Shown: one piece after another, positions 29,447 through 33,718 of the stretch | How positions within the stretch are numbered: position 1 is the first letter of the stretch | Layout: the number at the start of each line of letters is the position of its first letter | Origin: Comamonas aquatica NBRC 14918 | Lineage (GTDB): Bacteria; Pseudomonadota; Gammaproteobacteria; Burkholderiales; Burkholderiaceae_C | Length of the DNA stretch: 64,000 nucleotides | Direction: 5' to 3' | Assembly (NCBI RefSeq): GCF_000739875.1 | Contig: NZ_BBJR01000025.1 | Location: 1 to 64,000, forward strand | The notes under the pieces: generated by a model | What the model was told of the DNA's origin: nothing | What the model saw: only the letters and a program-made list of their open reading frames with translations | Database searches by the model: none | Made by a program: the position numbers and the translations under genes

Positions 29447-29609
29447 ACACAGCGGCGCGGCACGCCGGCACGCTTCGCCATCCACGATCCTCCCACGCTC
29501 GCAAAAAAGCGCTGCACCCTGATCCACGCGGCTACACTTCGCACTGGCTTGCATTCCCCACGGAATGACAAGCCTTTTTTCCCTTCTGATGCCTGCTTTC
29601 CCGCCGCCC

Positions 29610-30956
29610 ATGTCCACTGTCTTCAACTTCACCTTTGTTCCCTGGTTCCGGTCTGTGGCCCCGTACATCCACAAGTTCCGACACCAAACCTTTGTGGTGG
29701 GCATCACGGGCGAGGCGATTGCCGCCGGCAAGCTGCAAGGCATCGTGCAGGACCTGGCGCTGATCCAGGCCATGGGCGTCAAGCTGGTGCTGGTGCACGG
29801 CTTTCGTCCCCAGGTGAACGAGCAGTTGCGCCTCAAGGGCCAGGAGCCGCAGTACTACAACGGCACCCGTGTGACCGACAGCGTGGCCCTGGACTGCGCC
29901 CAGGAAGCCGCCGGCCAGCTGCGCTACGAGATCGAGGCCGCCTTCAGCCAGGGCCTGCCCAACACCCCCATGGCCGGCGCCCGCGTGCGCGTCATGTCGG
30001 GCAACTTCCTGACCGCCCGCCCCGTGGGCATCGTCAATGGCGTGGATTTCATGCACTCCGGCCTGGTGCGCAAGGTGGACGTGGAAGGCATCCGCCGCGC
30101 CCTGGACTCGGAGGCCATGGTGCTGCTGTCGCCCTTCGGCTTCTCCCCCACGGGCGAGGCCTTCAACCTCAGCATGGAAGAGGTGGCCACCCGCGTGGCC
30201 AGCGAGATGAAGGCCGACAAGCTGCTGTTCCTGACCGAAGTGCCCGGCGTGCGCACCGACCCGATGGCGCCCGAGGGCGATGACAACCCCATCGACACCG
30301 AGCTGCCCCTGGCCGCCGCGCGCCAGCTGCTGGCCAAGCTGCCCGCGCCGCAGGTGCCCACGGACACGGGCTTTTACCTGCAGCACTGCGTGCGCGCCTG
30401 CGAACAGGGCGTGGAGCGCAGCCACATCCTGCCGTTTGCGGTGGATGGCGCGCTGCTGCTGGAAATCTATGTGCACGACGGCATCGGCACCATGGTCATC
30501 GACGAGAAGCTGGAGGAGCTGCGCGAGGCCTCCATCGACGACGTGGGCGGCATCATCCAGCTGATCGAGCCCTTCGAGAACGACGGCACCCTGGTCAAGC
30601 GCGACCGCACCGAGATCGAGCGCGACATCGCCAGCTACACCGTGATCGAGCACGACGGCGTGATCTTCGGCTGCGCAGCCCTGCACCCCTACCTCGAAGC
30701 CAAGACCGCCGAGATGGCCGCCGTGACTGTCTCGCCCAAGGCCCAGGGCACGGGCGATGGCGAAAAGCTGCTCAAACGCATCGAGCAGCGTGCCCGCATC
30801 ATGGGCTGCGACACCCTGTTCGTGCTGACCACGCGCACCATGCACTGGTTCATCAAGCGGGGCTTCCAGCCGGTCAGCCCGGACTGGCTGCCCGAAGCGC
30901 GCAAGGCCAAGTACAACTGGGACCGCAAGAGCCAGGTGCTGGTCAAGAAGCTATAA
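29610..30956 (+). CDS. argA: Amino-acid N-acetyltransferase (N-acetylglutamate synthase)
   Basis: First step of arginine synthesis: acetyl-CoA plus glutamate gives N-acetylglutamate. 448 residues, the classical fused form: an amino-acid-kinase-like domain (about residues 1-290; VLVHGFRPQVNEQL, LTEVPGVRTDP), then a GNAT acetyltransferase domain (about 300-448; VTVSPKAQGTGDGEKLLKRIEQRA). ATG 29610 (MSTVFNFTFVPWFRSVAPYI) matches ArgA N termini; two upstream ATGs in frame add residues of low conservation. The kinase-like domain normally binds arginine for feedback inhibition. Confidence 0.95.
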   Translation: MSTVFNFTFVPWFRSVAPYIHKFRHQTFVVGITGEAIAAGKLQGIVQDLALIQAMGVKLVLVHGFRPQVNEQLRLKGQEPQYYNGTRVTDSVALDCAQEAAGQLRYEIEAAFSQGLPNTPMAGARVRVMSGNFLTARPVGIVNGVDFMHSGLVRKVDVEGIRRALDSEAMVLLSPFGFSPTGEAFNLSMEEVATRVASEMKADKLLFLTEVPGVRTDPMAPEGDDNPIDTELPLAAARQLLAKLPAPQVPTDTGFYLQHCVRACEQGVERSHILPFAVDGALLLEIYVHDGIGTMVIDEKLEELREASIDDVGGIIQLIEPFENDGTLVKRDRTEIERDIASYTVIEHDGVIFGCAALHPYLEAKTAEMAAVTVSPKAQGTGDGEKLLKRIEQRARIMGCDTLFVLTTRTMHWFIKRGFQPVSPDWLPEARKAKYNWDRKSQVLVKKL

Positions 30957-30962
30957 CCGACG

Positions 30963-30988
30963 TTTACCGATCAACGGTAAAAAATTTT
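30963..30988 (+). terminator. Weak terminator candidate after argA
   Basis: Stem TTTACCG/CGGTAAA with a 5-nt loop, followed by A-rich sequence and TTTT. It begins 7 nt past the argA stop. The short T-run makes it a weak candidate. Confidence 0.45.
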
Positions 30989-31006
30989 AAACAGCACTTG
31001 CCAACA

Positions 31007-31048
31007 AATAGCAGCAAAATTCTCATGAATACATGATTTTTTGCTATT
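31007..31048. promoter_or_regulatory. AT-rich dyad upstream of nrdJ
   Basis: An imperfect palindrome with nested arms AATAGCA/TGCTATT, CAAAA/TTTTG and TCATG/CATGA. It ends 22 nt before a TAGAAT -10-like box (31071-31076), so it covers the place where a -35 region or regulator would sit. No run of T follows, which argues against a terminator. Confidence 0.45.
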
Positions 31049-31070
31049 AATTTCATACTCCAAACCTGAC

Positions 31071-31336
31071 TAGAATACGCGCCGTGCTCGGTGCAAAAAC
31101 CGCTGCGATAGCCCCCGACCAGGGCCCCACTATTGCAGCGCCCGCATGCCGGAGGCTCGGATTTTGGGTTCCAATTCCCCCTTTGTTGGCCCTGGCGCCA
31201 ACCGGGCCCACCAGGCCCGACTCCGATCCCCTGGCCGGGCGTGCCAAGTACGCCCGGCCTCTTTTTTTTCGTTCCCTGTGCATGGCTTTTGCTTGTGCAA
31301 GGACTGTCTCGACATTCTTCTTACTGCAAAGACGAA
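31071..31336 (+). promoter_or_regulatory. Structured nrdJ leader, candidate riboswitch or attenuator
   Basis: From the TAGAAT box to the nrdJ start there is about 260 nt without coding. It contains an 11-bp helix (CGCTGCGATAG at 31101-31111 with CTATTGCAGCG at 31130-31140, one G-U pair), a GTTGGC/GCCAAC stem (31185-31202), competing GGAG/CTCC and TCGGA/TCCGA pairings, and a strong terminator at 31233-31269. A segment CCGGGC at 31203-31208 could pair with the terminator arm as an antiterminator. I see no B12 box, so it is not a standard cobalamin riboswitch. It could also be a separate small RNA. Confidence 0.55.
31233..31269 (+). terminator. Intrinsic terminator inside the nrdJ leader
   Basis: Perfect 10-bp stem GGCCGGGCGT/ACGCCCGGCC with a 7-nt loop, followed by TC and eight T. 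It ends 67 nt before the nrdJ ATG and is the strongest terminator in the window by appearance. Confidence 0.85.
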
Positions 31337-33718
31337 ATGACTTCTTTGAACACCCAACCAATCAGCCAAGACGTCTTGGCCGAGAAATACCTGGCTGCCG
31401 GCGAACACACCGCCGAAGACCTGTTCCGTCGTGTCTCCCAGGCTCTGGCAGACCAAGAAAAGCCGGAGCTGCGCGCCGAGTGGGCGGAGAAGTTCTTCAA
31501 AAACATGCAAGCCGGTGCCATCGGCGCCGGCCGCATCATGGCCGCCGCCGGCCTGGACACCAAGGCCACGCTGATCAACTGCTTCGTGCAGCCCGTGGCC
31601 GACGCCACCAACGGCTTTGACGAAAACGGCAACCCCGGCATCTACACCGCGCTGTCGCAGGCCGCGGAAACCATGCGCCGTGGCGGTGGCGTGGGCTATG
31701 ACTTCTCCAACCTGCGTCCCAAGGGTGCGCGGGTCAAGGGCACGAACTCCTACGCGTCGGGCCCCTGCTCCTTCATCGACGTGTTTGACGCTTCGTGCAC
31801 CACCGTGGAATCCGCCGGTGCGCGCCGCGGTGCACAGATGGGCGTGATGCGCATCGACCACCCCGATGTGCTGGACTTCATCACTGCCAAGCGCCAAAAG
31901 GGCCGCTGGAACAACTTCAACGTCTCGGTCGGTGTGACCAGCGACTTCATGCAGGCCGTGGAAAACGATGCCCCTTGGGAACTGGTGCACGTGGCCACCC
32001 CCTCGGACATCCAGATCGACGCCGGTGCCTACCAGCGCGACGATGGCAAGTGGGTCTACCGCACCGCGCAGGCGCGCGAGCTGTGGGACAGCATCATGAA
32101 GTCGGCCTACGACTTCGCTGAGCCGGGCATCCTGTTCATCGACAACATCAACAACGACAACAACCTGTACTACGCAGAGACGATTGCCGCCACCAACCCC
32201 TGTGGCGAGCAACCCCTGCCCCCCTACGGCTGCTGCGACCTGGGCCCCATCATCCTGACCAAGTTCGTGCGTGATGCCTTCACGCCCGAAGCCCGTTTCG
32301 ATGTGGACGCCTTCCGCGCCGCCGTCGCCATCCAGGTGCGCATGCTGGACAACGTGCTGGACGCCACCGTCTGGCCCCTGCCCGAGCAGCACAAGGAATC
32401 GCAGCAAAAGCGCCGCATCGGCGTGGGCTTCACCGGTCTGGGCGATGCCCTGATCATGCTGGGCCTGAAGTACAACAGCGACGCCGGTGTGCAGCAGGGC
32501 GAAACCATCGCCCGCCACATGCGCGACGCCGCCTACCTGGCCTCGGTCGAACTGGCCAAGGAAAAGGGGGCCTTCCCGCTGTTCGACGCAGACAAGTACC
32601 TGGCCAGCGGCTTCACCCAGCGCCTGCCCGAAGCCATCCGCGCCGAAATCCGTGCCCACGGCATCCGCAACAGCCACCTGCTGTCGATCGCGCCCACCGG
32701 CACCGTGTCGCTGGCCTTTGCCGACAACGCCTCCAACGGCATCGAGCCGCCCTTCTCGTGGACCTACAACCGCAAGAAGCGCACGGCCGATGGCGGCAAC
32801 AGCCACTACACCGTGGAAGACCACGCCTACCGCGTGTTCAAGGCAATGCACGGCGCCGATGCGCCGCTGCCCGAAGCCTTCGTCAGCGCGCTGGAAATGA
32901 CCGCCGCCGAGCACGTGGCGATGATGCGCGTGGTCCAGCCCTACATCGACACCGCCATCTCCAAGACGGTGAACATCCCCGCCGACTATCCGTTCGAGGA
33001 CTTCAAGAACCTCTACATGGAAAGCTGGAAGGCCGGCCTCAAGGGCTGCGCCACCTACCGCCCCAACGACACGCTGGGTGCCGTGCTGTCCGTGGAGCCG
33101 CCCAAGCCCGCCGAAGCGCCCAAGCCCGTGGCCAGCACCCACAGCAGCAACATCGCCGCCGTGGTGGAACGCCGCCCCGAAGGCCCGCTGAACGCCGTGG
33201 TCGACAAGATCGAGTACTTCACGCACGACGGCGCGCGCCGCCTGTACCTGGTGGTCAGCTTCATGCTGGTGGACGGCGTGGAGCGCCCCATCGAGTTCTT
33301 CATGCCCGTGGGCCAGACCGGTGAGAGCCAGCAGTGGATCACCGCCACCATGCGCTCGCTGTCGCTGGCCGCGCGCGGCGGCTTCCTGGACAAGGCCCTG
33401 GACGACCTGCGCAAGGTGGCCTGGGACCGTGGCCCCATCCGCTACGGCTGGATGGACAAGGCCGACGGCAGCCGCGTGCCACTGTGGCACGACAGCGAAG
33501 TGGCCCTGCTGGCCTACGCCGTGCAGGCCATCATCGCCAACCGCGGTGAGGCCCAGCCCGCCCCCAGCACCAGCGCGGCCCCTGCACCAGCGCCTGTGGC
33601 CGATGCCACGCAGACCATGAGCGGCAAGAAGTGCCCCGACTGCGGCGCCCACGCCGTGATCAAGAAGGATGGCTGCTCGTTCTGCACCGCCTGTGGCTAT
33701 ATCGGCGCTTGCGGCTGA
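31337..33718 (+). CDS. nrdJ: Adenosylcobalamin-dependent ribonucleotide reductase (class II)
   Basis: Makes deoxyribonucleotides from ribonucleoside diphosphates using a B12-derived thiyl radical; works with or without oxygen. 793 residues. The first redox Cys lies in LINCFVQPV (about residue 82). The active-site loop is NPCGEQPLPPYGCCDLG (Asn287, Cys289, Glu291), and SIAPTGTVS and KGCATYRPN follow. The C terminus is a zinc-ribbon-like Cys cluster (CPDCGAHAVI... CSFCTACGYIGACG) that would relay electrons. ATG 31337 is chosen from homology of the N terminus. Expression is likely controlled by the leader upstream. Confidence 0.95.
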   Translation: MTSLNTQPISQDVLAEKYLAAGEHTAEDLFRRVSQALADQEKPELRAEWAEKFFKNMQAGAIGAGRIMAAAGLDTKATLINCFVQPVADATNGFDENGNPGIYTALSQAAETMRRGGGVGYDFSNLRPKGARVKGTNSYASGPCSFIDVFDASCTTVESAGARRGAQMGVMRIDHPDVLDFITAKRQKGRWNNFNVSVGVTSDFMQAVENDAPWELVHVATPSDIQIDAGAYQRDDGKWVYRTAQARELWDSIMKSAYDFAEPGILFIDNINNDNNLYYAETIAATNPCGEQPLPPYGCCDLGPIILTKFVRDAFTPEARFDVDAFRAAVAIQVRMLDNVLDATVWPLPEQHKESQQKRRIGVGFTGLGDALIMLGLKYNSDAGVQQGETIARHMRDAAYLASVELAKEKGAFPLFDADKYLASGFTQRLPEAIRAEIRAHGIRNSHLLSIAPTGTVSLAFADNASNGIEPPFSWTYNRKKRTADGGNSHYTVEDHAYRVFKAMHGADAPLPEAFVSALEMTAAEHVAMMRVVQPYIDTAISKTVNIPADYPFEDFKNLYMESWKAGLKGCATYRPNDTLGAVLSVEPPKPAEAPKPVASTHSSNIAAVVERRPEGPLNAVVDKIEYFTHDGARRLYLVVSFMLVDGVERPIEFFMPVGQTGESQQWITATMRSLSLAARGGFLDKALDDLRKVAWDRGPIRYGWMDKADGSRVPLWHDSEVALLAYAVQAIIANRGEAQPAPSTSAAPAPAPVADATQTMSGKKCPDCGAHAVIKKDGCSFCTACGYIGACG

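Follow-up and report, generated by a model that had tools for sequence, protein, structure and literature searches.

The gene for the adenosylcobalamin-dependent ribonucleotide reductase NrdJ of Comamonas aquatica NBRC 14918 is preceded by a long leader that contains an intrinsic terminator. Our main reading is that this leader is a Comamonas-specific, terminator-attenuated 5' UTR that would lower nrdJ output by premature termination, and we put the probability of this reading at about one half. Sequence comparison establishes the conservation of a TAGAAT box, of the terminator, of a covarying hairpin termed HP-a and of a hairpin at the start codon. A bacterium that has several ribonucleotide reductases has to choose between enzymes that depend on B12 and enzymes that do not. 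The leader has no match at threshold in Rfam 15.

The nrdJ locus and its relatives

The window (the whole stretch of DNA that was analysed, 64,000 nucleotides) carries nrdJ at 31337..33718 on the forward strand, and the gene product scores 597 bits with TIGR02504 against a cut-off of 400. Among 53 Comamonas genomes searched, 49 gave some reductase match and 42 a match with at least 62% identity to NrdJ. A related argA-nrdJ leader was found in six species: that of the window (W), C. jiangduensis (locus L015, genome G033), Comamonas NoAH 17 (L004), C. kerstersii (L006), the MAG NTP6 (L007, genome G042) and C. avium (L005). NrdJ best-segment identity between the window and the five sister loci is 88-94%. 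The features of the window are the following.

29565..30956 (+): argA, N-acetylglutamate synthase type (open reading frame; PF00696 (AA_kinase) and PF00583 (GNAT) over cut-off)
31007..31048 (+): imperfect inverted repeat AATAGCA...TGCTATT, which may mark where the argA transcript ends (by reading)
31071..31076 (+): P1, TAGAAT, a -10-like box (conservation)
31101..31140 (+): 11-bp helix, 31101-31111/31130-31140, with one G-U pair
31122..31143 (+): alternative hairpin GGGCcC/GcGCCC, which excludes the 11-bp helix (consensus helix 2; alignment dependent)
31157..31226 (+): closing helix of the 3' domain, 31157-31161/31222-31226 (5/5 pairs kept in C. jiangduensis, one compensated)
31163..31183 (+): conserved motif TTTnGGTnnAAnTnnnnCCTT (5/5 aligned leaders)
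31185..31202 (+): HP-a hairpin, with the strongest support among the covarying helices (five-species covariation)
31203..31219 (+): HP-b hairpin (6/6 pairs kept in C. jiangduensis, two compensated)
31233..31269 (+): intrinsic terminator with T tract (stem scan; homologues in relatives)
31276..31295 (+): conserved post-terminator element CTGTGCATGGCTTTTGCTTG (aligned in the window, C. jiangduensis, C. avium, NoAH 17 and C. kerstersii; lost in NTP6)
31327..31348 (+): weak start-codon hairpin CAAAGA/TCTTTG with the ATG in the loop (6/6 clade leaders)
31337..33718 (+): nrdJ, adenosylcobalamin-dependent ribonucleotide reductase (TIGR02504)

An earlier, sequence-only reading of this DNA held that no gene stands before the terminator. 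This is not the case: argA (29565-30956) lies directly upstream, and it precedes the leader in the five sister species too, where the same C-terminal sequence is found. In the window, argA ends (30956) 114 nt before the TAGAAT box, both being on the strand of nrdJ, and the inverted repeat at 31007-31048 is a possible terminator of the argA transcript. AT-rich ATAGC repeats similar to it follow argA in some of the sisters, for example in C. avium and C. jiangduensis.

A BLAST search with the leader gave matches in 2 of 100 genomes, one of them the window's own, in which BLAST detected no second copy. When R3, a covariance model of five leaders without the terminator, was run on the 53 Comamonas genomes at E up to 0.01, it matched in five, which are the genomes of its five source sequences, and all these matches lie before nrdJ. 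In the other 398 of 399 genomes of the family, searched with stricter filters and with eight candidates scored per genome, nothing exceeded 21.8 bits, against 81-106 bits for the members. Model R1, which includes the terminator, scored 19.0 bits in C. kerstersii, 18.9 in NTP6 and 13.5 in NoAH 17 at the right place, and 14.1 bits at an unrelated terminator of the window. The best five matches of R1 elsewhere in Comamonas were rejected as family members, most of them aligning chiefly over the terminator. One of them, locus L101, has 24.5 bits that extend over the whole of R1; it sits at the end of another gene and has no R3 match.

Up to 600 nt upstream were also inspected in 25 more Comamonas nrdJ loci (L046-L070). 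They yielded a single weak terminator-like hairpin, in L060, at 194 nt from the start of the match; what many of these loci have instead, by reading, is a promoter-like segment close to the start codon, with TACAAA or TACAAC at its end. Many of the upstream regions of L047-L063 (e.g., L051 and L055) share, again by reading, a TTGTTGCG(C/T)TGCGTCACAGC-like sequence with a TACAAA-like box after it, just upstream of the gene, and the two together are a possible activator-dependent promoter of nrdJ in these other Comamonas. At the four-fold sites of nrdJ, identity is 49-65% among the five species whose reading frame is complete, and hence silent sites are far diverged. In the C. jiangduensis assembly, nrdJ is read in two pieces near codon 35 (G033:C162:1244-1351), by a frameshift or an assembly error, and the comparison of leader and nrdJ with this species ends early at the break.

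The TAGAAT box and the terminator

The TAGAAT box lies at 31071-31076, where the sequence-only reading had placed it. It occurs exactly, and once, in five of the six argA-nrdJ intergenic regions, where shuffles lead one to expect 0.03-0.10 occurrences each, and C. avium has TAAGAT at this position. A consensus sigma-70 scan of 30500-31600 called no promoter, neither at the box nor behind the terminator. We treat the box as a putative promoter on account of its conservation. With respect to the attenuator layout, in which a terminator lies between promoter and gene, the terminator is present by sequence and the conserved box is uncalled by the scan. The motif TTTnGGTnnAAnTnnnnCCTT is possibly a degenerate second promoter, because GGTACAA-like boxes recur, by reading, near nrdJ in other Comamonas.

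The terminator has the features that had been described: a perfect 10-bp stem (31233-31242/31250-31259) is followed by TC and eight T (31262-31269), and the T tract ends 67 nt before the nrdJ ATG at 31337. A GC-rich terminator hairpin starting 97-113 nt before nrdJ is present in five of the six species. Its stem is perfect in the window, NoAH 17, C. kerstersii and NTP6 and has one mismatch in C. jiangduensis, and a pair of the stem changes between G-C, G-U and A-U among species. No terminator was found in C. avium, which retains the TAGAAT-like box and the 3' end of the leader. In single-sequence ensembles the terminator has a probability of 0.65-1.00 in five of five leaders (0/60 shuffles as high). 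The scanned region contains one terminator-like site against a mean of 1.4 in shuffles; as this count is not above chance, the credibility of the terminator comes from its perfection and from its retention in relatives.

Structure of the leader

None of 200 dinucleotide shuffles folds as well as the 266-nt stretch 31071-31336 (z -3.8). Without the terminator, the folding excess of the window leader is moderate (z -2.33, with 3/200 shuffles as good), and the corresponding numbers of equally good shuffles out of 200 are 3 for NoAH 17, 7 for C. avium, 53 for C. kerstersii and 28 for C. jiangduensis. All 59 pairs of the window fold taken together, 44 are kept in C. jiangduensis (null 36.8, p 0.005) and six are compensated (null 2.1, p 0.011). 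The 11-bp helix, which had been singled out from the sequence, does exist in the window, with its one G-U pair, but it is not conserved, even in the nearest relative. Compared with C. jiangduensis, 7 of its 11 pairs are kept (null mean 7.4) and none is compensated, and we rejected it as a conserved core since this is no better than chance. The hairpin at 31122-31143 has an ensemble probability of 0.11-0.99 (0-1/60 shuffles as high). It occupies the place of the NrdR-box palindrome of NoAH 17 and C. kerstersii, so that a constraint at the DNA level could explain it there. Consensus helices 1 and 3 have ensemble backing in one species each.

The 3' domain consists of the closing helix, HP-a, HP-b and the terminator. 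Folded separately, the 3' domains of the window and C. jiangduensis take closely similar shapes, and 5 of 31 pairs are compensated between them, against 0-1 when slid and 2.5 in shuffles (20/500 as high). HP-a stands out, in that compensated changes occur, in one species or another, at each of its five consensus pairs; when the window is compared with C. jiangduensis alone, two of six pairs are compensated. Its ensemble probability is 0.15-0.91 in five of five leaders (0-3/60 shuffles as high), and by reading a hairpin recurs at this place across realignments. The covariation of HP-a over five species is clearest between the window and C. jiangduensis, and its significance is gone without the latter. 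HP-b is predicted only in these two species and not in NoAH 17, C. kerstersii or NTP6. Where a covariation check of the helices had been proposed, HP-a thus covaries but the 11-bp helix does not.

The alignment of the core comprises the window, C. jiangduensis, NoAH 17, C. kerstersii and NTP6; C. avium, which is without terminator and core, was excluded. In its consensus, 14 of 34 pairs have compensated changes, with 20 cells against 9.0 after shuffling (0/500 as high) and at most 8 when slid, and column shuffles were never as stable (0/400), also without the terminator. With four aligners, 0, 1, 0 and 7 of 200 shuffles were as stable; leaving out one leader at a time, in the order given above, the numbers were 0, 24, 0, 1 and 0 of 200. 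Analysed by halves with one aligner, the non-terminator 3' part of the core is significant (0/200 column shuffles) and the 5' part is without structure, and the 5' half of the leader has no alignment-robust structure. Hardly any consensus structure emerges from the full six-leader alignment (-3.85 kcal/mol), in which the covariation term is unfavourable (+1.97), and the alignment of NoAH 17, C. kerstersii and NTP6 shows little covariation (term -0.31).

Two mutually exclusive pairings had been proposed for the leader. They can be drawn, but the best antiterminator is matched by 17.6% of 500 shuffled leaders, and in none of five leaders does complementarity to the terminator arm exceed that in shuffles (fractions 0.07-0.32). 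We rejected an antiterminator in the leader on these grounds, its pairing being no better than in shuffles. By reading, no conserved leader peptide is apparent, the sequence ATG ACC TTG occurring in NoAH 17, C. kerstersii and NTP6 only.

These results bear on whether the leader might be a metabolite riboswitch. A new aptamer would then occupy 31151-31231 and bind AdoCbl, a nucleotide or some other ligand, and the terminator would serve as the platform. The gene that such a riboswitch would control encodes a B12 enzyme, the 3' domain directly before the terminator is multibranched and has five pairs that are compensated when the window is compared with C. jiangduensis, and the motif TTTnGGTnnAAnTnnnnCCTT falls in the junction of this domain. 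However, R2, a model of the 3' domain built from the same two leaders, finds only these two among 11 sources and is thus confined to two species, the loops are not conserved in other species, and there is no antiterminator above chance. No conserved aptamer-like core was found across the species. The identity of the leader body between species is mostly near the shuffled level, the exceptions being the window with C. jiangduensis and NoAH 17 with C. kerstersii, with a smaller excess, for example, in the pairs NoAH 17-C. avium and C. avium-NTP6; such divergence is unlike an ordinary aptamer. We consider a riboswitch very improbable. A fixed attenuator, or one modulated by a protein or another factor, is favoured over it, because neither a conserved ligand pocket nor an antiterminator was found.

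The hairpin at the start codon

The weak start hairpin (CAAAGACGNAATGACTTCTTTG and variants) forms in all six clade leaders, with -3.0 to -5.4 kcal/mol on 28 nt, and is absent in the four testosteroni-group loci examined. One-sided changes in C. avium and NTP6 preserve the pairing, and the codons ACT, TCT and TTG are invariant at the hairpin though rare in the nrdJ of the window (2, 1 and 2 uses). Among 282 conserved four- or six-fold codons, 73, including those of the hairpin, are identical in the five full species, and identical runs as long as the 17-nt run at the hairpin occur at two other places in nrdJ, so that the conservation of these codons is suggestive only.

NrdR operators and the start of nrdJ transcription

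The leader of NoAH 17 contains an NrdR box with one mismatch (0/1000 shuffles as good) and that of C. kerstersii one with three mismatches (7/1000). In both, a second partial site with the core CTA(A/G)ATTTAG follows after 15 nt, giving a 31-bp spacing, and the boxes sit upstream of the terminator. Since nrdJ is the next gene, nrdJ transcription in these two species most likely begins before the terminator. At nrdJ in the window, C. avium, NTP6 and C. jiangduensis, no NrdR box better than shuffles was found; the best site of the window has five mismatches (269/1000 shuffles as good), and its nrdJ does not qualify for the NrdR regulon. A start upstream of the terminator in the window is therefore argued by homology with NoAH 17 and C. 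kerstersii. The gene nrdR itself was found in seven of eight genomes examined, the exception being that of NTP6. Despite a completeness of 99%, this MAG gives no TIGR00244 (NrdR) match, and its nrdJ leader is without an NrdR box.

The boxes of NoAH 17 and C. kerstersii resemble those of other NrdR-regulated promoters, and their 31-bp spacing is as at class Ia nrdA, which carries NrdR boxes upstream; in contrast, the window, C. jiangduensis, C. avium and NTP6 have no recognisable box at nrdJ. The nrdJ of P. aeruginosa is an example of a ribonucleotide reductase gene with an NrdR-regulated promoter, and the passages on it in PMC4409342 mention no terminator. Upstream of class Ia nrdA (L071:1172-1450, L072, L073 and L076), there are two clusters of NrdR boxes, and the distance of 261-264 bp between them is conserved over four genomes.

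The position of the operators also matters for a different function of the terminator, which could be an insulator that stops transcripts coming from argA or started at the TAGAAT box; nrdJ would then have its own promoter within the 67 nt that follow. By reading, no non-coding block is better conserved than 31276-31295, and this block survives in C. avium, where there is no terminator. In 12 of 15 species pairs, the stretch behind the terminator exceeds the shuffled mean, and in seven it does so by more than 1.5 sd; the pairs not above the mean are NoAH 17-C. avium, NoAH 17-NTP6 and C. avium-C. kerstersii. A downstream promoter would also give such a block, which speaks against the attenuator, and other Comamonas have, by reading, a promoter-like motif close to the nrdJ start. 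On the other hand, the sigma-70 scan calls no promoter there, and a TTGCTT hexamer in the stretch has, by reading, no matching -10 at a fixed distance. The sigma-54 consensus has GG at -24, and a sigma-54-like GCAYG-N4-TTGCT pattern after the terminator lacks the first G of this pair, so that we rejected a sigma-54 promoter. It is mainly the NrdR operators of NoAH 17 and C. kerstersii, upstream of the terminator, that make us prefer attenuation, and we regard an insulator as rather unlikely.

For attenuation, the following course of events can be proposed. Transcription would begin at the TAGAAT box, with a probable further, NrdR-controlled start deeper in the leader in NoAH 17 and C. kerstersii. 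The polymerase would then cross a leader that evolves fast and has one or two small hairpins at its end, and most transcripts would stop at the terminator. The fraction that reads through would become nrdJ mRNA, with its start codon within the short conserved hairpin, and this read-through may be regulated. The sequence-only reading had likened the leader to an attenuator or riboswitch. A leader with a terminator kept in five of six species and with one covarying helix agrees with this, but neither an antiterminator nor a conserved aptamer was found, and an attenuator remains the plausible part of that proposal.

Known RNA families and the second reductase

Rfam 15 gave no match at threshold in the window or the five sister loci, and all matches in the leader at E up to 10 are far below threshold, with sX11 on top. 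The earlier expectation that the leader is not the standard cobalamin switch was borne out, as a covariance search of 30940-31500 at E up to 10 gave nothing for RF00174. PMC8079986 lists the actinobacterial nrdJ motif, RF03034, upstream of nrdJ in Streptomyces lividans. Both that motif and our leader are structured RNAs before a class II ribonucleotide reductase gene, but the leader has no match to the RF03034 covariance model at E up to 10, and we rejected this motif for it. None of six Comamonas genomes gave an RF03034 match over the cut-off, and the matches in control genomes (4 of 14) were also below it, which limits the weight of this negative result. Our literature search, with supplements outside its scope, turned up no Comamonas nrdJ leader.

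The sX11 sRNA (RF02230) was rejected: it scores 20.2 bits (E 0.16) against a gathering threshold of 70, and genome-wide no match was found at E up to 0.001, nor in control genomes. The leader could also be a stand-alone small RNA of ~185 nt, running from the TAGAAT box to the terminator and acting elsewhere, with nrdJ transcribed from another start. That box and terminator bracket a discrete unit in five of six species fits this proposal, as does the sub-threshold sX11 match. However, it is over the terminator that the sX11 alignment matches best, the body has diverged almost to the shuffled level, BLAST found no second genomic copy, and the matches of R3 in the 53 genomes (E up to 0.01) lie only before nrdJ. 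We consider a separate small RNA decidedly unlikely.

The cobalamin riboswitch RF00174 would share with the leader an attenuation logic, and both are linked with B12-related genes. RF00174 is present in one to five copies in each of eight Comamonas genomes examined, and none of these copies lies at nrdJ; in the window's genome there are four matches elsewhere, and RF00174 was rejected for nrdJ. Five sister genomes have a second reductase locus, independent of B12, with a cobalamin riboswitch before it on its own strand.

G010:C2:3968-4192: cobalamin riboswitch before second reductase
G049:C10:95645-95880: cobalamin riboswitch before second reductase
G050:C15:34896-35129: cobalamin riboswitch before second reductase
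G042:C18:23436-23665: cobalamin riboswitch before second reductase
G033:C48:10944-11180: cobalamin riboswitch before second reductase

No match to a second, class Ib-type reductase was found in the window's genome. A class I reductase of Streptomyces is reportedly under B12-riboswitch control. If our reading is true, a read-through-controlled nrdJ leader in species that have a class Ib locus under a cobalamin riboswitch as well would make a testable case of how the choice between reductases is wired. It is also conceivable, but improbable in our judgement, that the leader represents a new, fast-evolving class of riboswitch or protein-responsive attenuator of one Comamonas clade, with a sensor at 31151-31231, the terminator as platform and a translational start hairpin, complementing the class Ib cobalamin riboswitch of the sister genomes. 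The second reductase locus of genome G010 (L078) contains nrdI, a glutaredoxin-like gene and the genes of two subunits, a small one and a large one whose closest class is Ib NrdE, and we read it as nrdHIEF.
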